From NCBI RefSeq assembly GCF_001182045.1, contig NZ_CVTY01000006.1, forward strand, positions 420,086 to 484,085: a DNA stretch of 64,000 nucleotides, read 5' to 3'. This DNA is from Dakarella massiliensis (lineage in GTDB: Bacteria; Pseudomonadota; Gammaproteobacteria; Burkholderiales; Burkholderiaceae_F). The notes below the pieces were generated by a model that was given only the letters and a program-made list of their open reading frames with translations, was not told the DNA's origin and searched no databases. Below, piece after piece: positions 13,186 through 25,744 of the stretch (position 1 is the stretch's first letter; every line of letters starts with the position of its first letter). The translations under genes were made by a program, and so were the position numbers.

Positions 13186-13548
13186 ATGTCAGCCCCGGTG
13201 ATCCATAACTTTAATGAACTGAAGAAAGACCTGTTTTTAAAAGACTGCCGGTTTTCTGAGAGGAGTGGAAAGTTTTGTTTTGACGATGCGAACTTCGATG
13301 GGTTTGCAAATCGGAATCCAACTCCTATCTACGTTCATTCGAAACAAGAGATAGGAAGGTACATTCAAGAAATCCAGGAAGCTTTCAGCAGCCATCCCCA
13401 TACTGAAATCTTTTATGCCGCCAAGGTCTGTTCCGACACGGCGATCCTCAGGATTGTGAAGGATCTTGGCTTAGGGGTCGGTTCATTTACTTGGTCAAAT
13501 TTTATCGCTCTTGATAACACTTCCCGTCCGTTGACATCCGGAGACCAC
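13186..13548 (+). pseudogene. Truncated lysA-like fold-III PLP decarboxylase, cut at the CRISPR array
   Basis: About the first 110 codons resemble the N-terminus of diaminopimelate/ornithine decarboxylases. TPIYVHSKQEIGRYIQEIQ is followed by IFYAAKVCSDTAILRIVKDL, where the lysine of YAAK would bind pyridoxal phosphate. After GLGVGS the family pattern is lost, and 13549 is the first base of the terminal CRISPR repeat; the open frame runs on into the array to 13626 without meaning. Normal length is about 400 residues, so three quarters are missing and no 3' part is seen on the other side of the cas genes. It is AT-richer than the upstream genes. Most likely a relic left when the CRISPR locus arrived or the flank was deleted. 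Confidence 0.7.
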
Positions 13549-16500
13549 GAAACACCTCTGCGTAGGCAGAGAAAAGAAAAACTCGCGTCGGTACCACGTA
13601 GCCCGGCAGGAAACACCTCTGCGTAGGCAGAGAAAAGCATCGCGTGAGGACGCATGGTCCCCCAGAGCGAGAAACACCTCTGCGTAGGCAGAGAAAAGTG
13701 AGCTGAGCGAGGCCGGGGCGCCAATGGTGGAGAAACACCTCTGCGTAGGCAGAGAAAAGTGGGTGCTGTTGTAACTGAGCGGTTGCACTCAGGAAACACC
13801 TCTGCGTAGGCAGAGAAAAGTGAGCTGAGCGAGGCCGGGGCGCCAATGGTGGAGAAACACCTCTGCGTAGGCAGAGAAAAGTGGATGGAAGCCGAGCTGG
13901 ACTGCGGGAGGGCAAGAAACACCTCTGCGTAGGCAGAGAAAAGCATTACGACAGACTCCTCCCCCATCTCCTGGCAGAAACACCTCTGCGTAGGCAGAGA
14001 AAAGATGGAATGGCGTGAAGTTCCTGCTGAACGCACGGAAACACCTCTGCGTAGGCAGAGAAAAGCTTCCACGCACGCTCCCGCTCGGCCTTGGGAAGGA
14101 AACACCTCTGCGTAGGCAGAGAAAAGTTTCAGAATGGAGAGCGCTTTTTTACAGACCTAGAAACACCTCTGCGTAGGCAGAGAAAAGGCCAGACCTCAAT
14201 CCGCGACTCGTCATATCAGGGAAACACCTCTGCGTAGGCAGAGAAAAGCTGACAGAGGCTATATGGCGGGGAACCTGATTAGAAACACCTCTGCGTAGGC
14301 AGAGAAAAGCGCGCGAGCCTAGTCACAACGCGGCATAGTGAAGAAACACCTCTGCGTAGGCAGAGAAAAGCCGCCGCCGTGACCGTCCCAGAGAAAGTGA
14401 GGGGAAACACCTCTGCGTAGGCAGAGAAAAGAAAGCAATGAGCTACGCCTTTAAGAATGCCATGGAAACACCTCTGCGTAGGCAGAGAAAAGCCCCTGGA
14501 CGCCCCTTGGTTGGCGTCATATGCAGAAACACCTCTGCGTAGGCAGAGAAAAGACATCAGTGCCGCAAAGAAGTGGCAGGGATCGAGAAACACCTCTGCG
14601 TAGGCAGAGAAAAGGCACTGAACGGACAAAACCGTCTTTCCCAAGAAGAAACACCTCTGCGTAGGCAGAGAAAAGCGGGCAGCTCAGGATATTACTCAGG
14701 CTAACAAGGAAACACCTCTGCGTAGGCAGAGAAAAGCACTCTTCACAAAATGAAGTTGCCGGGGCATAAGAAACACCTCTGCGTAGGCAGAGAAAAGATG
14801 ACACCGTTCTTATCCAGACCGTAGTACTGGGAAACACCTCTGCGTAGGCAGAGAAAAGCCCAACTTTATAGGCTTTATAAAGAGTCAGGAAGAAACACCT
14901 CTGCGTAGGCAGAGAAAAGTCATGGTGGGTTTCAGAAAAGATGTCTCCAATGAGAAACACCTCTGCGTAGGCAGAGAAAAGGAATCTTGTAGAAGTCCAC
15001 GGCGTTCGAGCCTAGAAACACCTCTGCGTAGGCAGAGAAAAGATCGGAACGATGATCCCGAAGCTGGAGGCGGTGAGAAACACCTCTGCGTAGGCAGAGA
15101 AAAGCTGAACAGAACAAAGCCATCAACTCTGCCGATAGAAACACCTCTGCGTAGGCAGAGAAAAGTCTATGCCGGCGGCAAGAAACTCCCCGGTCTGGGA
15201 AACACCTCTGCGTAGGCAGAGAAAAGAAAATACAGCCGCCGGGGCGTCCACAGCCAAAGGAAACACCTCTGCGTAGGCAGAGAAAAGCTCCGGATGGCTA
15301 ACCAGATAGCTCCAGGGATGGAAACACCTCTGCGTAGGCAGAGAAAAGATGGTTTGAATTCACTAAACGCTAGCATTTTTGGAAACACCTCTGCGTAGGC
15401 AGAGAAAAGCGGACATCTTTCCCGAGTAGGCAGACCTTTCCAAGAAACACCTCTGCGTAGGCAGAGAAAAGGGCGAAAGGTTTATCTATCTCGCTCTGGG
15501 ATCAGAAACACCTCTGCGTAGGCAGAGAAAAGAACCAAAGTAAGAATCAAAGAGCCTTTAGACATAGAAACACCTCTGCGTAGGCAGAGAAAAGCCTGGT
15601 GGGGTGATCGGCTGATCGAATGCCTGAGAAACACCTCTGCGTAGGCAGAGAAAAGCGACGAGCTCCACAACCGTGAGGTCGCGAGGGGGAAACACCTCTG
15701 CGTAGGCAGAGAAAAGCTTCTTTGACCTTAGCTTTAAGATCTGTATACGGAAACACCTCTGCGTAGGCAGAGAAAAGAGTCTTTGCACCTCTTGCACTGC
15801 GGGTAGAGGAGAAACACCTCTGCGTAGGCAGAGAAAAGTCACCAAAGGAGTCGTTCTTCCGGTACATCGTGGAAACACCTCTGCGTAGGCAGAGAAAAGC
15901 ACTTCGTCGCCCGGCTGAGGCTCTATAGATGGGAAACACCTCTGCGTAGGCAGAGAAAAGGTATGACATCGGCTTGCCTGCTTTTAATCGCGAGAAACAC
16001 CTCTGCGTAGGCAGAGAAAAGTGGGTGCTGTTGTAACTGAGCGGTTGCACTCAGGAAACACCTCTGCGTAGGCAGAGAAAAGGAAGCGGTGTCGGCGTCG
16101 CCTGCACGCTTAAGGGAAACACCTCTGCGTAGGCAGAGAAAAGTCAGCAAGCCCCTGAGCCTTCAAGAGACCTTTAGAAACACCTCTGCGTAGGCAGAGA
16201 AAAGCGTATGACCTCAGGCCGGACAGACCCCCCCCAGGAAACACCTCTGCGTAGGCAGAGAAAAGAGAGGATCCGCCGGGCTTCTTCTCGGGAAATGGGA
16301 AACACCTCTGCGTAGGCAGAGAAAAGTGGTGGATCTGATCCCTGATTTTTCATCCCGCGGAAACACCTCTGCGTAGGCAGAGAAAAGATTCGCGGTTGCC
16401 CGATCCATGTGGCTCAGGCGGAAACACCTCTGCGTAGGCAGAGAAAAGCGTATCAAAAGACACGGAAGCGCCGTCCACGGAGAAACACCTCTGCGTAGGC

Positions 16501-17365
16501 AGAGAAAAGTTCTGGAGATCTGAGGAATCCGTGTCGTCCGCAAGAAACACCTCTGCGTAGGCAGAGAAAAGGGGATAGCCATAAGCAAAAAAGTCGATAT
16601 TTTTGGAAACACCTCTGCGTAGGCAGAGAAAAGTTGGTGGAAAAATTTATACAGGATGGAAAGAGGGAAACACCTCTGCGTAGGCAGAGAAAAGATTTTC
16701 TCTCTTGATCTTGTAAATTCTTTCCGGGAAACACCTCTGCGTAGGCAGAGAAAAGCGGCTCTCTGGCTGGCTATGAACCCGGACGGAGGAAACACCTCTG
16801 CGTAGGCAGAGAAAAGTCCGGGAGCTTTCTCGCATACCGGGAGAAATAGGAAACACCTCTGCGTAGGCAGAGAAAAGCGGCCACATTAACAACTGTCTTC
16901 GGGTAACTCGGAAACACCTCTGCGTAGGCAGAGAAAAGAGTAGAAAAATAATTTGAGCTTGAACGCGACTAGAAACACCTCTGCGTAGGCAGAGAAAAGA
17001 AGGTAAAACGGCCCTGAACCCTGTCTCTCACGGAAACACCTCTGCGTAGGCAGAGAAAAGCGGGGATTGCCCCGTGGGAAATACGCCCCGATAGAAACAC
17101 CTCTGCGTAGGCAGAGAAAAGTACCCGATAGTCCCTTGAGCGTTTTTCCCCGTAGAAACACCTCTGCGTAGGCAGAGAAAAGCACACCGTTCTTCGTCGA
17201 AAGCCAGCGTACCGGGAAACACCTCTGCGTAGGCAGAGAAAAGAGCTGGATGTGTTCCTTGCTGAGCGTCCAACGAGAAACACCTCTGCGTAGGCAGAGA
17301 AAAGTCCGGAATAATTTTGTCACGCAGGATATCCAGAGAAACACCTCTGCGTAGGCAGAGAAAAG
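13549..17365 (-). CRISPR. Type I-E CRISPR array, 63 repeats and 62 spacers
   Basis: Sixty-three copies of a 28-base unit start at 13549, 13610, 13671 and so on to 17338. The spacing is 61 bp in 55 intervals and 62 bp in seven. All repeats read the same to my eye, including the terminal one. On the transcribed (minus) strand the repeat contains CTCTGC-CTAC-GCAGAG, a 6-bp stem for Cas6e, and ends GTGTTTC. A 29th position is always C or T, so the effective layout is 29-base repeat plus 32-base spacer, the type I-E standard. The leader lies at the right end next to cas2, so the newest spacers are near 17300 and the oldest near 13600. Two spacer pairs are identical: 13699/13821 and 13760/16022. 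Confidence 0.98.
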
Positions 17366-17454
17366 TCCGACATTTGGTATATTTTTTGATGATTAAATCA
17401 ATATTTTGTATATCAAAAAAAGACCATATGATTCCAGATTGTTAAAGAACGTAC
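17366..17454 (-). promoter_or_regulatory. CRISPR leader
   Basis: An AT-rich 89-bp stretch lies between cas2 and the first repeat, on the same strand as both. It should hold the array promoter and the integration signals. It contains a perfect IHF consensus site. Confidence 0.8.
17396..17408. promoter_or_regulatory. IHF-binding site in the CRISPR leader
   Basis: AATCAATATTTTG matches WATCAANNNNTTR at every defined position. It begins 31 bp from the first repeat. In E. coli type I-E, IHF bends the leader at a similar distance to direct Cas1-Cas2 to the first repeat. Confidence 0.65.
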
Positions 17455-17739
17455 TCAAGAGATTTTCTTTTCAATAACAAGCTGAATTCCAGATATTGTA
17501 ATAAGTTCTTTGGAGGTGGAACCCAGATTGAAAATCTTGTAATAGGGTGTTTTGCCCACGCTTTTAAAAACCAGCAGTCCGGACTCTAACGGGCAATTAT
17601 CGAGAAGATAAGACACAACCTTGTCGGCTACATGGTCAGTGACGCCTGAAACAAAGACATTGGGTTTCGGCTCAATAAACCACAATTTCATTCTTCCACG
17701 TATTCGGTCAGGAAGACTATTTGCAATCACTACGATCAT
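17455..17739 (-). CDS. cas2: Cas2e, CRISPR adaptation protein
   Basis: A 94-residue Cas2 of the type I-E kind, opening MIVVIANSLPDRIRGRMKLW as in the E. coli ygbF family. It forms the centre of the Cas1-Cas2 integrase that inserts new spacers at the leader end. The start overlaps the cas1 stop by ATGA, so the two are translationally coupled. It is the last gene of the cas operon, directly before the leader and array. Length matches the family (about 94-100). No missing residues are evident. Confidence 0.95.
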   Translation of the reverse strand: MIVVIANSLPDRIRGRMKLWFIEPKPNVFVSGVTDHVADKVVSYLLDNCPLESGLLVFKSVGKTPYYKIFNLGSTSKELITISGIQLVIEKKIS

Positions 17740-18593
17740 TCGTTCTTCCCCAATAATCGCGGTATATCGAGCGTCATCCGTTTAAGGAGATCCAGATCAA
17801 TCACCCTTTGTCTGAAAGCATCAGAAACTTTTTCTCTTTCATATATTCCGTTTAGTTGCCGTGTCAGAGCAAAAGCTAGATCAATCGATACCTCAGCTTT
17901 ATATAGGTCGGATATGTCGTAGACAAATGGTAATGGTGAACCGGTATGCACAAAACCAATGTGAGGGGAGTATCCCAATGCATGTATGACAGATGCTGTA
18001 ACCCCATATAGAGCTGCATTGCATACGGTAAGAATCTGATTCGTTGTACTGGATAGTTGAAAGTGATTTGGGACAAAAGACCGACCGCTCCATCCCACCC
18101 GGTAGTATATGGCTTTTTCAAGGTATAAGGCTTTGACTCGTCTGCCTTCCATACCCCTCAGATCACTGAGGTTTCTGTTTGTCAGATCCTCTCCTGGAAA
18201 GCGATCCTGAAACATTCTCTTTGCCACACACAAACGAGTTGTTGGATTAGCAGCCGCTTTCATTTGAAAGCGGAAATTTTTTGTATCTGCAGTCGGCGAA
18301 TCACCGAATGCATAAAAAAGAAGACTATCTTCTCCCATCCAGCTCACTGAACAGTTGGCAGCCGAGAGAACCTTAATAGCCTCATGAGTTACAGTGGTGC
18401 CTGGCCCCAGAAACAGCGAACAGATTGTAGCAATAGGTATCCTCACGACGTTTCCATCGGAATCGATCCACTTCACGCTGCTGTCGTCAATAGCGAGTCT
18501 TCCATGTTCCAGGTATAGGAATGGATACTTATCCTTTACCCTTGGAAGCGTGTCTCTCGTTATCTTGACATAGAGTCTGGGGCCAGTTCCCAT
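17736..18593 (-). CDS. cas1: Cas1, CRISPR integrase
   Basis: A 285-residue type I-E Cas1, slightly shorter than the E. coli 305. An N-terminal beta domain (LYLEHGRLAIDDSSVKWID) is followed by the helical catalytic domain. Candidate metal residues are the Glu of LYLEKAIYYRVGW, the His of YSPHIGFVHTGS and the Asp of PFVYDISDLYK. It carries out spacer capture and integration with Cas2e. The start lies 4 bp after the cas5e stop and the end overlaps cas2, so it is fully within the operon. Lower GC than the flanking chromosome, as across the whole cas cluster. Confidence 0.96.
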   Translation of the reverse strand: MGTGPRLYVKITRDTLPRVKDKYPFLYLEHGRLAIDDSSVKWIDSDGNVVRIPIATICSLFLGPGTTVTHEAIKVLSAANCSVSWMGEDSLLFYAFGDSPTADTKNFRFQMKAAANPTTRLCVAKRMFQDRFPGEDLTNRNLSDLRGMEGRRVKALYLEKAIYYRVGWSGRSFVPNHFQLSSTTNQILTVCNAALYGVTASVIHALGYSPHIGFVHTGSPLPFVYDISDLYKAEVSIDLAFALTRQLNGIYEREKVSDAFRQRVIDLDLLKRMTLDIPRLLGKNE

Positions 18594-18597
18594 AGCA

Positions 18598-19308
18598 CTA
18601 ACCTTCGGGAGCTGCAGGAATCACAGTAACCACTCTGTCACGATACTTCTTCATAACACCGAAGGAGACTGGTACATCGTTGAGGAGCATGACAGTTCCT
18701 TTTTCCGGAGCTTCCTCCTCAGTAACGGTGAATTGAGGTTTTCTATTTTTCCTTTCAGCTAGCGATACCGCTTCTTTCTTTGCTTCTTCCGCCGTGTCAA
18801 ATAAACCCTGAGGAATAATCTCGGAAGGAACACAGTTTTTCCGTCCCAGGGAAAGCGCCCATACAGGAGACTTTAAAGCATTGAAAAGAGTATTCGCGAG
18901 TTCTTCATCGTCAAACGACAGATAAACAGAAAACGCGGCCGACTGCAGGTAAAACCGATAAGTCAGTTTGGAACCCGTCACCATCGCGGGCTTTTTCCCT
19001 TCGTCCGTCTTTGGGATGAAAAGATTCTCCCACGGGTCCTTACCGTCATATCCATTTCCGACTCCCTGAAAATCGACGAGCATAGGCGAAGGCGTTTTCT
19101 TATCCAGTATGAACGACTGGCATTCCCATTTTGCTTTGGAAAGACGGGAGAGCAGTTCCGTTTGGGGTCCGCCAGCCCCTAGGGCTGCGCAAAGCATTCC
19201 GCAGATGCCGGATAAGGTCGGAAACGGAAGCGTGTCTCTCCGATCAAACTGGGAGTCGTGCCCCCAGCTTTGCAATGGGCCTTCCAGCCAGAGCAAGAGA
19301 GTTTTCAT
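18598..19308 (-). CDS. cas5e: Cas5e, Cascade subunit
   Basis: A 236-residue Cas5 of type I-E (CasD). The N-terminus KTLLLWLEGPLQSWG is the characteristic Cas5 opening, followed by a ferredoxin-like RAMP fold with DTLPFPTLSGICGMLCAALG. It caps the 5' handle of the crRNA and joins the large subunit to the Cas7 backbone. It starts 10 bp after cas7e with GGAGAG upstream, and cas1 follows after 4 bp. Length is close to the usual 220-240. It sits after cas7e as in E. coli, but cas6e does not follow it here. Confidence 0.95.
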   Translation of the reverse strand: MKTLLLWLEGPLQSWGHDSQFDRRDTLPFPTLSGICGMLCAALGAGGPQTELLSRLSKAKWECQSFILDKKTPSPMLVDFQGVGNGYDGKDPWENLFIPKTDEGKKPAMVTGSKLTYRFYLQSAAFSVYLSFDDEELANTLFNALKSPVWALSLGRKNCVPSEIIPQGLFDTAEEAKKEAVSLAERKNRKPQFTVTEEEAPEKGTVMLLNDVPVSFGVMKKYRDRVVTVIPAAPEG

Positions 19309-19318
19309 AACCGCTCTC

Positions 19319-20428
19319 CTAGATGGCCGCCTGAATTCCGTGGATCAGATCGTCAATGGAATAATCCTCGTTTTTTCCCCACTCGAAACCAGCGATTTTG
19401 CCAAACAGCGATCCGCACATTTTTTCCTTCTTATCAAGATAGGAGTCCAATGCCTTGATGCTCGGATTCAAATAGCCGTTATCGCAGCGTACAGGGGTCT
19501 CAAAGGGCACCTGCAAGCGCTGCCCTTTGCGGACATAGACTCTGGCATAGTCCCAGGGACTGGCACCGGAACAGGAGTGCTGACGTGCTGTGGGAACGGC
19601 AACGAAGAGAGCTTTCGTGAAAATTTCAACGGCTTTCTTCATTTCTTCGTCAGATTCCTCTTCAATGCCGAATGTGTCCGCGAGCTGTCCCAGGTCCAGG
19701 CTGATATAGCGGTAGTACGTGGCTGAGTTGTATTCAATCGGTCCAAGATGAGCGCTGCCCTGTTCCTCAGGTTTTCTCATGTCATCAAGAGCCGTGAAGT
19801 AATCAATTTCGGGAACAGATTTATGCGTGGAAATAGCGTGGGAGAAAGAGGCTGCTGCCTGTACCTCCATCTCAGGTGCCTGGGCTACCATGCGGCCAAA
19901 GAGCGCAATATCAAGCACATTGAAGTTTTTGTCGAGAATCTTTTTCGACAGCTTGACAAGCTCCTGGGTAATACTCTTCAGTTTTTTAGCCCCTTCTTTC
20001 CCTGCCGGAATCTGGAGGTCAAACCCTTTCTCTTTGGCATATTCGGCAAATGAGTTGCACTCTGCAGGGCTGATGAACACAAGCGTGTCTTTGGCCAGAG
20101 CCTGAGAAATGGTGTCGCCGCTGACGGCAGCCTGTTCATCAGTCGCACCCAGTTTCTTGCAGGCTTCAGAGACAAGATCCGAAATATGTTTCGTACGAAT
20201 ACCGAGCTGGAATTGGGGTTCGGCATCGTTGTTGTTATTGTCAAGAAGAGAGTGAAGATCCATTCTCACGCGGCGCTTCCAGCACTGAGAGCTGACTCGG
20301 GAACGGGGGACACCCCCAATCAGGGCTGTTTTCGGGGAACCAACGTCATCACGGTTCAGACACGTAACAGGAAAGCTCTGAAGAATATGGTATTCAACGA
20401 TCTTGCCAGTGTAGGGATTCTTTTTCAT
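19319..20428 (-). CDS. cas7e: Cas7e, Cascade backbone subunit
   Basis: A 369-residue Cas7 of type I-E (CasC/Cse4), which polymerises along the crRNA. YHILQSFPVTCLNRDDVGSP at residues 13-32 and SRVSSQCWKRRVR at 43-55 are hallmark family segments; FSHAISTHKSVPEIDYFTAL is the later conserved region. The start at 20428 has AGAGG seven bases upstream and lies 10 bp after the cas6e stop. An open frame continues upstream to 20557 inside cas6e, but the extra residues have no family match. Length is typical (about 350-390). Confidence 0.96.
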   Translation of the reverse strand: MKKNPYTGKIVEYHILQSFPVTCLNRDDVGSPKTALIGGVPRSRVSSQCWKRRVRMDLHSLLDNNNNDAEPQFQLGIRTKHISDLVSEACKKLGATDEQAAVSGDTISQALAKDTLVFISPAECNSFAEYAKEKGFDLQIPAGKEGAKKLKSITQELVKLSKKILDKNFNVLDIALFGRMVAQAPEMEVQAAASFSHAISTHKSVPEIDYFTALDDMRKPEEQGSAHLGPIEYNSATYYRYISLDLGQLADTFGIEEESDEEMKKAVEIFTKALFVAVPTARQHSCSGASPWDYARVYVRKGQRLQVPFETPVRCDNGYLNPSIKALDSYLDKKEKMCGSLFGKIAGFEWGKNEDYSIDDLIHGIQAAI

Positions 20429-20438
20429 AGTTTGCCTC

Positions 20439-21068
20439 TTAAGCCTCAGAAGAGAGAGAAACGGGAATAATCTGTAATAGGCCGCAGCCGAAAGCTCTCC
20501 CGCGGCCAATTCCATTTGCAAAAGATTCAGAAAAAATGTCTTTGTCGGTGACCTCAAGCGTGCCGCGAAGATCGGCTTGTGAGAGCGTGACCTTGCTGTT
20601 ATCTTTTCTGAAAGTCACGACCTTTTTTGAAGTAACTTCCACAGCGCCCGGATCGACTGAGAAACCCCAGCGAGGTGCACGGTCCGCGAACCACTGAATG
20701 ATGTTTTCATCTCCGCGTACAGGCTCCACATTTCTGGAAACGTGGTGGAAGATGCTCGGATTGACTCTCACATAGAATCGGTAATACCGACTGTCAAGAA
20801 ATCCATCAGGCAGTTCTTTGGTTTCGAGACTCCCAAACATGGGGGTCGATGGGGGCACCTTAGAGAGAATCAGAACACGTGTCTGATCTCGATGTCCTTC
20901 TGCGAGTCGCCATTGAATGCCTGAGGGAGCAGATCCTTTTTTCTCGATACCGCCCAATCCAAAAAGCCCACAGATAATACGGTGCAGGCTGTAAGGGTCT
21001 GTTACTCGATTCCATGCGAGATCGATAGGACTCAGCGTAAGAAGGCTGAGATAAAACTTTGTCGTCAT
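20439..21068 (-). CDS. cas6e: Cas6e, crRNA-processing endoribonuclease
   Basis: A 209-residue Cas6e (CasE/Cse3). DPYSLHRIICGLFG at 24-37 supplies the catalytic pair Y26 and H29, as in the Thermus enzyme. The glycine-rich loop GIGRGRAFGCGLL lies near the C-terminus. It should cut each repeat transcript at the base of the CTCTGC/GCAGAG stem, leaving a handle of GUGUUUC plus the variable pyrimidine. It starts 3 bases after the stop of the cse1-cse2 fusion. Its position ahead of cas7e departs from the E. coli order, where cas6e follows cas5e. Confidence 0.93.
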   Translation of the reverse strand: MTTKFYLSLLTLSPIDLAWNRVTDPYSLHRIICGLFGLGGIEKKGSAPSGIQWRLAEGHRDQTRVLILSKVPPSTPMFGSLETKELPDGFLDSRYYRFYVRVNPSIFHHVSRNVEPVRGDENIIQWFADRAPRWGFSVDPGAVEVTSKKVVTFRKDNSKVTLSQADLRGTLEVTDKDIFSESFANGIGRGRAFGCGLLQIIPVSLSSEA

Positions 21069-21071
21069 TTC

Positions 21072-21602
21072 TTATACAGCCTCTTCGTTGGAGGAATCGG
21101 CCGATCTCCCATAGAAAGAAATCGCCCATTGCATCTTGACCCGTTCTCTTCCAGTATCAAAACGGAAATCCCGCAGATCCTCAAGGAGCTGAGAGTAGGA
21201 AAGGTGTGCGTTTCCTTGACTCTGGATCAGATGAAGCATCGGCCGAAGCACCCGGCAGGCCTCACTCAGGGAGTCACAGGAGAGAAGCCTCTGAAGGCGC
21301 TGCGCTCCAGGAGAATGAGATGATTCCCCGCCGTTTCCTGAATTAGCGAAACAGACAGCAAGCGCTTTGCCCAGATCCTGATTTCCATCGGTTTCCACCT
21401 TACTTTGAGCAAGCGCGGCGGCGACCAGGAAATAAGCGTCTTTTTCGTCGCTCTTTAGATCCACTTTCTCCTGAGTGAGGATAGGAATAAGAATCGGCCA
21501 GGCTTCATACTGCGTCGCGGGGTTGAACGCGCGTCTCAAAGCGGCGGCGTCTCCCTTGCTTTGCTTGATGATCTGAAGAATACGGGAAATAAAAACTTCC
21601 AT
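21072..21602 (-). CDS. cse2: Predicted free Cse2/Cas11e from an internal start
   Basis: Within the fusion, AGGAG lies seven bases before an in-frame ATG at 21602 (residue 497 of the long frame). Translation from it would give a 176-residue protein beginning MEVFISRILQIIKQ, essentially a complete Cse2 (E. coli 160 residues). The site falls exactly at the domain boundary, as expected if cse1 lost its stop codon but cse2 kept its ribosome site. Internal small-subunit production is known for type I-B, I-C and I-D large subunits, but type I-E systems usually have a separate cse2. The product is a prediction; the motif and frame are seen directly. Confidence 0.65.
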   Translation of the reverse strand: MEVFISRILQIIKQSKGDAAALRRAFNPATQYEAWPILIPILTQEKVDLKSDEKDAYFLVAAALAQSKVETDGNQDLGKALAVCFANSGNGGESSHSPGAQRLQRLLSCDSLSEACRVLRPMLHLIQSQGNAHLSYSQLLEDLRDFRFDTGRERVKMQWAISFYGRSADSSNEEAV

Positions 21603-23090
21603 TTTCGGACTCCTGGACCGCGCCCAGCGGGCACGGCCGACAGATGGATACGCTCTTGCCCAATCCAGTAGTTGACGGCTGGACGTTTTGGGGCAGACGA
21701 TATTGAAAATATCCAGAACAATGTCATCTATTCTGGAGCGCAGTTTTGGAGATTCATTGTTTCTGCAGAGGTTGATGATTCTTTGCTTCAGAGGATCACA
21801 ACGTTCCCAGAAAAGAAGCGAGGCCCGCCCGGCGAGTTTTGACGCGTCAGCTAAATTTCCGGCTCCTGAGCTGCTTCCATAAGGCATGACGTACTCGCGG
21901 ACGCTTCTCTGAAGTGTCCTATCCATTTCTTCCAGATATGCGAATTCAGTTTTATAGGTTCTGAACCAGCGCTCATGCGGATAAATCTCTACAGCGGATT
22001 CCACGTAATCGTTGGTAGAAGAAACTTTCTGAGTTCCCATACTGAAAGTGACCTGCAGCCCCCCGGACCAGATGCCAACGCTCTCACGGGCGTACGCCAG
22101 CTTAGAAAGCGCGAGATTCAGACGCCAGCAGATACTGTTGTTGTCACTTTGAGAATCCAGGCATGAAGTCAGAGCAACCAGATCCCGCCACGGTCTCTTC
22201 TCTGGATGAACCTCTTCACAGCGGAAGACATTTTTCTTGTTCTTTTTCAGGAGGGTTGACGGATCAACGCTGCCATCATTAAGGACAATACCTTCGGTGA
22301 TATAGATGCCGTTTTTATCGAGCAGGCAGAATCGGTTCATTGAGAGGAGCTGCCCCTCAAGAGATTCCTTTAAATCCTGAGCGATTTCATCATCCTCTCC
22401 CTTTGGCATGGCATCCCAGGGAGGCGTACCGACGCCTGAAGGAAAAAGATTCGAATCTTCGATTTCCTCTTCGGTAAAGGTATTCATCCAAATTGTTTCA
22501 AGAATGGATTTTCCGAAGCAATAGGTGTGAAGAAAACCGTTATAACCGACCCCCGACCCTGGTTTTGCAGAAGTTTTTTTCAGGCTGTAGCCGGCTGACA
22601 GAGAAAAAGAGTTATCAGTCCGCTTTCCTCCTAAGGAGAAGTTCATCTGCACTAGCAGTGCCACAGCTTTTTCAGCATCGGTAAACGAATGATCCAACTG
22701 TCTTTGGGTAAGAACAGTCGTATTACCTGTCGCTATATGAGGGTATAAACCGCCGATTTTCTGCGGCTCCGAAATTTTCAGTTTAATTGCGGGAAACTGA
22801 AGAAAAGGTTTATCCCCATATAATTCGAAAAGATCCCGGCGTGATCTGAGGTAAGAGAGACATCGTTCTCCAAATTTTTTCAGATCGGCTCCCAGTTGTC
22901 TCCACTCCTCCTCATTATCCGGAGTGCACGCGGCCTGGGAAATCGCCAGCAGGAGATTCATTACGGAAATTTTCTCAACGGGATTTCCTCCTAAATGGCG
23001 GAGCGATTCGTCAGAAAAAATCGCCTGCAGAGAGACTGGTTCATGACCGGCAACTGGAATCCAAGGCTCGTCAAGCAAGTTGTAACTCAT
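21072..23090 (-). CDS. Cse1-Cse2 fusion (Cas8e large subunit joined to Cas11e small subunit)
   Basis: One 672-residue frame holds two Cascade subunits. Residues 1 to about 496 are Cse1 (CasA/Cas8e): it begins NLLDEPWIPV and has Cse1-like length (E. coli 502), with no zinc-finger cysteines. Residues 497 to 672 are Cse2 (CasB/Cas11e): AAALRRAFNP, AYFLVAAALAQ, QRLQRLLSCDSLSEACRVLR, LLEDLRDF and the closing KMQWAISFYG follow the Cse2 pattern in order. No stop separates them and no other cse2 exists in the locus. Normally these are two genes at 1:2 stoichiometry. The start at 23090 has AAGGAG upstream, overlapping the cas3 stop. A second initiation site lies at the junction (21602). Confidence 0.9.
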   Translation of the reverse strand: MSYNLLDEPWIPVAGHEPVSLQAIFSDESLRHLGGNPVEKISVMNLLLAISQAACTPDNEEEWRQLGADLKKFGERCLSYLRSRRDLFELYGDKPFLQFPAIKLKISEPQKIGGLYPHIATGNTTVLTQRQLDHSFTDAEKAVALLVQMNFSLGGKRTDNSFSLSAGYSLKKTSAKPGSGVGYNGFLHTYCFGKSILETIWMNTFTEEEIEDSNLFPSGVGTPPWDAMPKGEDDEIAQDLKESLEGQLLSMNRFCLLDKNGIYITEGIVLNDGSVDPSTLLKKNKKNVFRCEEVHPEKRPWRDLVALTSCLDSQSDNNSICWRLNLALSKLAYARESVGIWSGGLQVTFSMGTQKVSSTNDYVESAVEIYPHERWFRTYKTEFAYLEEMDRTLQRSVREYVMPYGSSSGAGNLADASKLAGRASLLFWERCDPLKQRIINLCRNNESPKLRSRIDDIVLDIFNIVCPKTSSRQLLDWARAYPSVGRARWARSRSPKMEVFISRILQIIKQSKGDAAALRRAFNPATQYEAWPILIPILTQEKVDLKSDEKDAYFLVAAALAQSKVETDGNQDLGKALAVCFANSGNGGESSHSPGAQRLQRLLSCDSLSEACRVLRPMLHLIQSQGNAHLSYSQLLEDLRDFRFDTGRERVKMQWAISFYGRSADSSNEEAV

Positions 23091-23095
23091 TGGCG

Positions 23096-25744
23096 CTACT
23101 CCTTTTCCAGGCACCATCCAATCGTCGAGTCGTAGTACTGCGTGCAGTCGCGTGACAGGTTGAAAGCGGTGCCGGATTGATCAATTAAAGCTATAAAAAG
23201 ATTCTCGGAATTCGGTGAGCCTAAGTAGATGAAGTTTCCGAAACCGAATGCTTTGGCTTTTTCAAAACTGATAGAAAAACCTTTCGCACGGGTAACTGAG
23301 AGGTGAATAAAACTGCTTCTCAAAGAAGAGGCGATTTTTTTCCACTGGGATTTGGAAAAGTCCTTCTGCTCATGGGGGAATGTTACTTTTTCTCCATTCA
23401 GGAGAGTCAGTACCGTTCTGCCATTCTCGGTAGCTATGTTTTGGATAAGAAGCATATCCACAGTGGGAATTTCTGAGTGCCGGGTCTGCGCAGTTGAGTC
23501 ATCCTCCGTTGAGGTGCAAGGATTATTGAGATTTTTCCTAGCGTCCTCAATCAGGCGATAAATACCCGGGCATTTGGGAGTCCCATACAGAAGGTCATTC
23601 TTCAGATTCCCAAACAGGCCTGTTTCGGGTCTGTCACCCAAAGCGGCTTCCATCAGCCGGGGAATGTCGGAGGGGACTGCTAATTCAGAAACAGGTTCCA
23701 GAGTTTCCAGTGTCCGGCAAAGCGTATAAGGACTATAGACAGCCGCGGAAGATCCTAGGTTCTGCCGAGGATTCTCCAGGGCTTCCTGAAGTGTGGGAGA
23801 AAGTATCCACATTTCACGCACAGCGGCATCAGAACGAGGAGTCTTTTGATGACGCCAGAGTCTGCCTGATCGCTGAAAAATCAGATCGATAGGCGCAATC
23901 CGGGATACCATGAAATCAGCATCGATATCCAGGCTTTGTTCAAGAATCTGGGTGCCAACCAGGATACGGCCGCAATCAAGACGGTGAGCCCATCCTGATT
24001 TCCCTAAGCGGGGAACCCATGCGGATTCAATGTTTTGTCGATCGCCCCGTGTAAATCGGGAGTGAAGCAACCCGCAGTCCACACCAATTTCCTTCGCTCG
24101 TGCTGCCAGCAACCGGTAAATTCTTTGACTGGTCGCGACATCGTTTTCTATCCAGAGTACCTGCTGATGGTTTTCAGCCCTTTTTAGTGCTTCCTCAATA
24201 GCGTCCCGTTCACCTTGTTCTTCGTGATGCAATGAAACAAAAACAGTTGAATCGGGCTGAGGAGGAAACGAGATGTGCCCCACAGTGCCATTTTTTCGAT
24301 AAGAAATGACCGGATACCCGAAGTCTTGCCGTTCATCCTCTGACAGTTCTCTTCTCCCCCTTGATGATTTTGCTTTTTCAGGGAAAAGAAGCTGATGGCG
24401 GCTTGATCGTGTCAGAGTTGCGGAGAGAAGGATAACCGTACACTTCAAGGCAGCTAGTTCATTTATAAGTTCCTTCAGAAGGAATCCAGTGTAGGCGTCA
24501 TAACTATGAACCTCATCGATTACGACGACTTTGCCTGCAAGACCGAACAGCCGTACAAAACTGTGACGCACAGCCATCACAGAAAGGAGTGCCTGATCAA
24601 CAGTACCGACCGCAAAAGGTGCGAGAAGTCCCCGCTTTTTTGCAGAGAACCAGCTGTTTCCCGGAGTAAACTCCCCACCCCCCATATCAAGGTGCTCAAA
24701 AAAATCCTCAGCATTAGCGTGAAGAAGTCCGGGGAGATCCGAGTCCGGAGCAGCGGCGCTTAGAAAATTGGCGAAGCGTTCGTAGATCTTGTTCGCGGTG
24801 AGTTGCGTTGGCAGCGCAAAGTAAATGCCACGGGCATGACCAGAAGAGAGAGCTAGGTAAGCCGCGAAGAGTGCGGCTTCAGTCTTTCCTAATCCCATTG
24901 GCGCTTCAAGGATATAAACACCTGGTTCACTGGCGACTTTGCCTAAAGCCTCCTGAAATTTATTAGGAGAATAAGGAGTGCCGTCGTTATCTTTGAAAAT
25001 TTCTCCAAAGGTTAGTGATCCCTTTATGCTTACCGGACTCATTCCTGCGTCTGCGGTAGCTTGTGATATCAGAGGCTGCCATGGAGATTCTGGATTATCG
25101 AAAATTGAGCCCGAACCAATCCAATCTGCCGCGGTAGTGAGGCCAGACACAAGTTGCCTTTGCACAGTAGTCATGGAGGCGGGAAAGGATTCTTTAAGTT
25201 CGTTCACGCATTCATTGATAAATTTTTCGCGGGATTTTTCCCAAAGAGGGCCCCCAAAATCTTCATCATCGGCACGCTGCCATTGCAGATCTTTCTTGGG
25301 TAGAGACCCGTGATGCTGTCCGACCACAGTCGCAATGTTATGATCGTGAGTCAGTTCCATCATCGTCACAAAGCTGACCCCCGGGTGTCCTCCCCAGCGC
25401 TCGGATTCATACTGTCTTATAGCTTCAGGATTATCGGTGAAAGAGGTTTCCTGCAGCAATTCCTTTACAGTGCCGTCTGATATTCCCGCCATCAGTTCAA
25501 GGCGAAGGAAAAAGGTCGGGGAGATTTTTCCCACGTCGTGGCATGCGGCGATAAGGGCAGAACCGGATGGAAAGATTGAAGATATCGTTTCCGGGAATAG
25601 TTTTTGCAGCTCTTTGGCGATCGTACCAACTATCAGACAATGATCTGCAACCGATCTGCCAAGTCGGTTGATCCCTGACTCATCTATCCAGGTTTTAGCC
25701 GGACATTGTTCGGCAGGTGGTGCAACTCGAATAAAAGAAGTCAT
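23096..25744 (-). CDS. cas3: Cas3, HD nuclease-helicase
   Basis: An 882-residue Cas3, close to the E. coli 888. The HD nuclease domain shows H35, H69-D70, H120 and H144-H145. The superfamily 2 helicase shows APMGLGKT (281-288), DEVH (410-413), SAT (441-443) and a late QRSGRLWRH motif. It is recruited by Cascade to unwind and degrade target DNA. The start at 25744 has AGAAGG nine bases upstream; a TTG start at 25768 is less likely. It is the first gene of the cas operon, and its stop codon overlaps the ribosome site of the cse1-cse2 fusion. All catalytic residues needed for interference appear intact. Confidence 0.96.
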   Translation of the reverse strand: MTSFIRVAPPAEQCPAKTWIDESGINRLGRSVADHCLIVGTIAKELQKLFPETISSIFPSGSALIAACHDVGKISPTFFLRLELMAGISDGTVKELLQETSFTDNPEAIRQYESERWGGHPGVSFVTMMELTHDHNIATVVGQHHGSLPKKDLQWQRADDEDFGGPLWEKSREKFINECVNELKESFPASMTTVQRQLVSGLTTAADWIGSGSIFDNPESPWQPLISQATADAGMSPVSIKGSLTFGEIFKDNDGTPYSPNKFQEALGKVASEPGVYILEAPMGLGKTEAALFAAYLALSSGHARGIYFALPTQLTANKIYERFANFLSAAAPDSDLPGLLHANAEDFFEHLDMGGGEFTPGNSWFSAKKRGLLAPFAVGTVDQALLSVMAVRHSFVRLFGLAGKVVVIDEVHSYDAYTGFLLKELINELAALKCTVILLSATLTRSSRHQLLFPEKAKSSRGRRELSEDERQDFGYPVISYRKNGTVGHISFPPQPDSTVFVSLHHEEQGERDAIEEALKRAENHQQVLWIENDVATSQRIYRLLAARAKEIGVDCGLLHSRFTRGDRQNIESAWVPRLGKSGWAHRLDCGRILVGTQILEQSLDIDADFMVSRIAPIDLIFQRSGRLWRHQKTPRSDAAVREMWILSPTLQEALENPRQNLGSSAAVYSPYTLCRTLETLEPVSELAVPSDIPRLMEAALGDRPETGLFGNLKNDLLYGTPKCPGIYRLIEDARKNLNNPCTSTEDDSTAQTRHSEIPTVDMLLIQNIATENGRTVLTLLNGEKVTFPHEQKDFSKSQWKKIASSLRSSFIHLSVTRAKGFSISFEKAKAFGFGNFIYLGSPNSENLFIALIDQSGTAFNLSRDCTQYYDSTIGWCLEKE

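Follow-up and report, generated by a model that had tools for sequence, protein, structure and literature searches.

A fused cse1-cse2 gene in a type I-E CRISPR locus of Dakarella massiliensis with a candidate internal start for free Cse2

Can one gene supply two subunits that Cascade needs in unequal numbers? The type I-E complex is reported to have normally one Cas8 and two Cas11, made from separate genes (PMC11899642). The locus of D. massiliensis, a gut bacterium, carries both subunits in one frame. The window is the whole stretch of DNA analyzed, 64,000 nucleotides of contig NZ_CVTY01000006.1. Its ORF at 21072..23117 (minus strand) is an uninterrupted open frame. Translation from ATG 23090, with AAGGAG 8 nt ahead of it, gives a 672-aa product. 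The gene and its parts are as follows.

21072..23090, minus strand: fused cse1-cse2 gene, 672 codons, 672 aa.
21750..23081, minus strand: Cse1 (Cas8e) domain, residues 4-447 by Pfam (PF09481, 2.8e-47), extended to residue 473 by TIGR02547, also seen in the predicted structure and structure matches.
21603..21650, minus strand: putative junction or linker, residues 481-496, placed from the alignment.
21111..21548, minus strand: Cse2 (Cas11e) domain, residues 515-660 by Pfam (PF09485, 4.4e-20), with Cse2 chains among the structure matches.

The NCBIfam models TIGR02547 and TIGR02548 both score over their own cut-offs on the fusion protein. Only Cse1 and Cse2 models matched it, and none for a large subunit of the Cas8b/c or Cas10d families did (Pfam/NCBIfam). 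The AF2 model of the fusion has a pLDDT of 89.8 and a pTM of 0.87, and both domains fold well. Structure matches with E up to 0.001 numbered 18, all of them Cse1 chains. Among the PDB matches listed, Cse1 chains rank first and Cse2 chains follow, and none spans both domains. The E. coli Cse2 chain was absent from the profile matches. The window's genome (2.48 Mb, 7 contigs) contained one match to the fusion protein and one PF09485 match, and no second cse2 was found in it. Separate cse1 and cse2 genes, usual in type I-E, are replaced in the window by one frame, a variant feature. The initial annotation had described a single 672-codon frame covering both subunits and no separate cse2. The ORF with its Pfam and NCBIfam domains bears out the first statement, and the single matches in the genome bear out the second.

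The fused gene is flanked by the following features.

23096..25744, minus strand: cas3, HD nuclease-helicase (Pfam/NCBIfam).
20439..21068, minus strand: cas6e (Pfam/NCBIfam).
19319..20434, minus strand: cas7e (Pfam/NCBIfam).
18598..19308, minus strand: cas5e (Pfam/NCBIfam).
17736..18593, minus strand: cas1e (Pfam/NCBIfam).
17455..17739, minus strand: cas2e (Pfam/NCBIfam).
13547..17370, no strand: 63-copy CRISPR array, repeat spacing about 61 nt, approximate end.

The window locus is a complete type I-E cas operon. Models run on seven window proteins identified the type I-E signature genes cse1 and cse2 with cas3, cas5e, cas6e, and cas7e. It also contains the type I-E feature of cas1e and cas2e (TIGR03638, TIGR01873) with a CRISPR array. 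For every one of the seven proteins, one or more NCBIfam models exceed the cut-off. For the Cas3 HD domain, the NCBIfam model scores slightly below its cut-off (39.4 vs 43.45) and Pfam Cas3_HD passes. The repeats are near-identical among the 30 of 63 copies listed. The array also contains a duplicated repeat-spacer unit at window 13671-13887, with units at 13671 and 13793 that are 99% identical over 95 nt. Its spacers gave no match to a phage collection by megablast, the one search used.

The Cse1/Cse2 boundary of the fused gene contains two further elements.

21610..21614, minus strand: AGGAG, a Shine-Dalgarno-like (SD) core for the putative internal start.
21072..21602, minus strand: in-frame ORF that opens within the gene at ATG 21602 (residue 497) and would encode a free Cse2 (Cas11e) of 176 aa, its start at the homologous position in relatives.

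The spacer between AGGAG (21614-21610) and ATG 21602 is 7 nt. In the AlphaFold model the last short Cse1 helix is 486-489 and the first Cse2 helix is 495-510, and these limits place the ATG at the domain boundary. In the two-gene relatives that were read, free cse2 starts at the corresponding place. The sequence, the helix limits, and the starts in relatives thus agree with the initial annotation, which had put AGGAG seven bases before an in-frame ATG at the domain boundary and a 176-residue Cse2 after it. The window shares with internally translated Cas11 an in-frame start and ribosome-binding site where the small-subunit domain begins, and no other small-subunit gene was found in its genome.

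The background frequency of such sites was taken from a 464-kb sample of the window's genome (400 kb of contig plus the window, fusion left out). ORFs of at least 200 aa were picked mechanically, without gene calling, and SD cores were counted at 4-11 nt. A core of at least 5 preceded 29 of 1522 internal in-frame ATGs, versus 26% of 156 ORF-start ATGs. Anti-SD pairing as good as that at ATG 21602 was found at 2.5% of the internal ATGs in this sample. The fusion gene has 11 internal in-frame ATGs, and ATG 21602 alone has an SD core of 5. The RNA in the 50 nt around it folds at -12.9 kcal/mol, versus a gene median of -9.1, which is stronger than at 85% of tested codon positions in the gene. The internal start in the window is a candidate. 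The site was seen in one genome, and it could be the leftover of a young fusion.

Relatives of the window gene were searched at the genus and family levels. Two of five genomes in the genus match, the window's own and G001. G001 has two genes with a 16-nt gap, and its Cse1 is 49% identical to that of the window. In the family, matches came from 10 of 67 genomes, of which the window's is the sole match that spans both domains without stops. The junction was read in eight of the nine other matching genomes, and each has two genes. In the ninth (G056), the parts are split over two contigs, and the contig that spans the junction has one TAA. In G020, cse1 and cse2 share a frame with one TAG between them, which overlaps the cse2 SD (TAGGAG...ATG). 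G006 has two stops at the junction. Where a relative's last Cse1 motif has its conserved Gln, cse1 ends 16-20 residues counted from this Gln, which is Gln473 in the window. The window codon for Trp489 (21626-21624, TGG) sits where cse1 stops in relatives and is one substitution from a stop. Given this position, the loss of one stop from an arrangement like that of G020 could yield the fusion with the cse2 start kept. By comparison with these loci, the window fusion is a derived state, from two genes. Two genes in close relatives had been named beforehand as a result that would refute the idea. They do occur, in G001, but they mark the fusion as derived and do not make it false.

Three other two-gene loci (L086, L105, and L130) have TAAGGA at the cse1 stop and an in-frame cse2 ATG 12 nt from the first base of the stop. 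These arrangements are one substitution short of a fusion.

Genome contigs were scanned with a Cse1 alignment, which gave 264 relatives, and the best 80 were kept. Of these best 80, 78 have cse2 in a frame of its own that follows the cse1 stop, many with an overlapping ATGA. One is fused (L137), and one is cut by a contig end (L117). In five of the 78 (L096, L119, L123, L126, and L139), the cse2 domain starts more than 100 nt past the cse1 stop. The samples overlap: L072 is G020, L134 is G1168, and L131 is G1169.

L137 is from an uncultured Desulfovibrionaceae bacterium. It encodes a 672-aa fusion with cas6e directly after it. A search of its family matched 33 of 288 genomes and added three more fusions (G1354, G1355, and G1358), each a single open frame with 64-67% identity to L137. 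The search of related genomes suggested in the initial annotation turned up another fusion lineage, shared by four genomes within one Desulfovibrionaceae family group. The four fusions are from four species, share 64-73% protein identity, and are 668-672 aa long. All four match Cse1 and Cse2 (Pfam). The search of the L137 family also gave two-gene relatives with the genes in the same frame and one TAA between them. The neighbors of the G1355 fusion are cas3, cas6e, cas7e, cas5e, cas1e, and cas2e. All four tested neighbors of G1354 are cas genes (cas3, cas7e, cas5e, and cas1e), as are both of those tested for L137 (cas6e and cas7e). For G1358 three of four are (cas3, cas7e, and cas5e), and the fourth, an ORF over the array, had no match. 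Arrays with a 61-nt period are present in the three larger stretches that carry these fusions. Each of the four genomes gave one match and no separate Cse2, with the fusion protein as a query that a distant Cse2 could escape.

The four junctions read CGGGAGGAAACAGCC-GTG, CGGGAGGCAGTC-GTG, CGGGAGGAAAAACAT-ATG, and CGGGAGGAATATCGT-ATG. GGGAGG precedes an in-frame GTG, GTG, ATG, or ATG in all four, at the same junction column and within a variable linker. The codons between the SD and the start, and those after the start, mostly differ among the four, and the start codons alternate between GTG and ATG. The free Cse2 predicted from the junction start is 178 aa in all four, though the fusion lengths vary. 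Over 667 gap-free codon columns, and with the gene start set aside, the junction alone has a start codon and an SD of at least 5 in all four. With an SD of at least 4 plus a start codon, 12 columns have a site in any of the four: nine in one species, two in two, none in three, and one, the junction, in four. The proteins diverge by 27-36%, and third bases are identical in 58-64% of same-residue codons. In the three larger stretches, internal ATG or GTG codons with an SD of at least 5 number 6 of 328 outside the fusion genes. Inside the three fusion genes they number 3 of 87, and each is the junction. RNA folding around the four junction starts is weak, within the lowest 4-22% of positions in the gene. 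The peptide SRE is common to the four fusions, so part of GGGAGG is also coding. The presence of the junction site in all four species, alone of the 12, is a pattern as expected of a selected internal start.

Did the two groups of fusions share an origin? In Cse1-domain trees (INDEPENDENCE), the window pairs with the two-gene G001 (SH-aLRT 99 with 96 rows and 100/99 with 28 rows). The window Cse1 is divergent and on a long branch. The four Desulfovibrionaceae fusions form one clade (100; 100/100) that adjoins two-gene members of their own family. Forcing all five fusions together in the 28-row tree, its rows hand-picked from the 96 and covering the Cse1 domain only with no Cse2 data, cost 43.7 log units (AU p=0.0003). 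Since the AU test rejects a common origin, the fusion arose at least twice under this model. The window and the Desulfovibrionaceae fusions would then be convergent cases, and they show that such a route is passable. The initial annotation had also suggested that the gene could be an evolutionary intermediate on the way to internally translated Cas11. As ancestry this is not supported; within type I-E the fusions fall on two separate branches.

The fusion is rare in wider samples. PF09485 matched 34 of 399 genomes from the order, 32 of 369 from the class, and 26 of 398 from the phylum. It matched 20 of 296 from the phylum of G1455 and 13 of 159 from the phylum of G1456. The five draws merge to 122 genomes, with G000 (in three lists) and G814 (in two) counted once, out of 1987 genomes searched in all. 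Three of the 122 matches are weak or spurious (G516, G773, and G1652). No Cse1-Cse2 fusion beyond the two lineages was found in the 121 further genomes with a Cse2 match, in searches that used frame length as the criterion and in which a fusion with a Cse2 unseen by the model would go undetected.

Ten genomes with frames of 280-851 aa around the PF09485 match were read closely. G753, G622, G690, and G541 were rejected as fusions; the Cse1 profile match is in a different frame from Cse2. G516 is spurious and showed neither Cse1 nor Cse2 by profiles. In G709, G804, G712, G965, and G513, the Cse2 frames span 280-416 aa, not long enough to hold both proteins. These five had no Cse1 profile match at E 0.01 and were judged by eye from the ORF list. 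Frames of 300-437 aa in the phylum of G1455 were set aside as too short for both proteins. G622 contains a 357-aa ORF (L030:3227-4300) with two tandem Cse2 domains and cse1 in another frame. No start codon preceded by an SD of at least 5 was found in codons 121-230 of this ORF.

Plasmid searches gave 8 records with the window query and 5 with the L148 query. The four plasmid records that were read have two genes each. One plasmid of Vibrio campbellii (L038, NZ_CP026317.1) has effector genes of type I-E flanked by IS elements, and the 14 kb that was read lists no cas3, cas1, or cas2. Its cse2 is present in another frame and is missing from the incomplete gene table. Viral contigs gave no match, and neither did genome contigs searched with the single window protein. 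Text searches of the literature found no Cse1-Cse2 fusion within a coverage that left out the first internal-Cas11 survey (McBride 2020).

We propose the following mechanism. Loss of the cse1 stop would join cse1 and cse2 in one frame of the type I-E operon, and full-length translation would give the Cse1-Cse2 fusion. Ribosomes would also initiate at the former cse2 start (AGGAG-7-ATG 21602), with a free Cse2 of 176 aa as the product. The fusion may occupy the Cse1 place, and the Cse2 tethered to it would be the neighboring Cse2.2. The free Cse2 may fill the other place, Cse2.1, and the ratio of one Cse1 to two Cse2 would be kept. This combination of stop loss, a fusion with internally started free Cse2, and a 1:2 Cascade is the best explanation and a probable one. 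The window RNA, more structured at ATG 21602 than at most codon positions of the gene, counts against it. Two products, fusion and free Cse2, are most likely made from these genes, and a 1:2 stoichiometry with one tethered Cse2 is plausible. The dual-product reading of the initial annotation has strong comparative support in the SD and start conserved in four species, and its free product stays a prediction.

Alternatively, only the fusion is made and the internal start is a relic. Cascade would then have one Cse2, or two fusions of which one gives only Cse2. A young fusion would be expected to retain such a relic, and the window fusion does derive from two genes with a cse2 start at this place; the rather structured local RNA also fits. 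Free Cse2 may be dispensable, because the type I-E system of E. coli reportedly silences genes and acts on plasmids even when Cas11 is missing (PMC12235044). The Desulfovibrionaceae site argues the other way. It has outlasted the protein divergence and the third-base change at shared residues given above, and 0 of the 11 other SD-plus-start sites are present in three or more species. We consider the relic unlikely.

It is improbable that a sequence or assembly error hides a stop codon in the window fusion. The fusion is known there from a single genome, Trp489 is one substitution from a stop at the very place where relatives stop, and the genus relative has two genes. Set against this, the frame is otherwise intact over 672 codons, and four other assemblies carry the same kind of fusion, real and lasting. 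Cutting of the fusion after translation into Cse1 and Cse2, with no internal initiation, would likewise give both subunits. It has nothing direct in its favor, would yield 1:1 rather than 1:2, and leaves the conserved SD and the exchange of ATG and GTG at the junction unexplained, and we regard it as very improbable. A decaying, inactive locus is the least probable reading: the divergent Cse1 on its long branch, the spacers with no megablast match to phage, and the Cas3 HD score just under the NCBIfam cut-off would fit it, and against it stand seven proteins that each pass an NCBIfam cut-off, the Pfam Cas3_HD match, the 63-copy array with its near-identical listed repeats, and the confident predicted fold of both domains.

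The preferred reading, a fusion plus an internally started free Cse2, can be compared with known systems. The window shares its gene families and the array period of about 61 nt with E. coli-type I-E, in which cse1/cas8e and cse2/cas11e are separate, but it has the large and small subunits in one gene. An internal Cas11 start was demonstrated in Haloferax I-B via a Met-to-Ala change (PMC11899642), and internal starts are reported for I-C and I-D (PMC7684278, PMC9123187). One gene with an in-frame internal start for the small subunit is what the window has in common with the Cas8 or Cas10d genes described in these three sources. Unlike those, the fusion consists of true type I-E Cse1 and Cse2, and related loci show the two-gene source state. 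Some type I-E systems are reported to have Cas3-Cse1 fusions (PMC3727216), which also join neighboring gene products but with a different partner; cas3 is separate in the window. The 2025 classification lists the variants I-E2 (HNH-Cas5) and I-E3 (nuclease-Cas11) (PMC12669027). In I-E3 the small subunit is likewise fused, but to a PD-(D/E)xK nuclease and not to Cse1 (PMC12669027). The tandem of G622 also joins type I-E small subunits covalently, but there two Cse2 are joined to each other and Cse1 is in another frame.

A type I-E fusion with two predicted products most likely converges on the I-B/I-C/I-D arrangement, reached from two genes. The fuller claim, that a single gene supplies each Cascade with one tethered Cse2 and one free Cse2 and so re-creates the I-B/I-C/I-D architecture from two genes, is evenly poised in our judgment. 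If it is true, joining two genes can create an internal Cas11 start, and such starts do not always have to represent the ancestral state that preceded separate cas11. The fusion step is visible twice, with two-gene relatives at hand. The control of Cascade stoichiometry would become testable through one start codon, and the arrangement suggests compact fused large and small subunits for tools.
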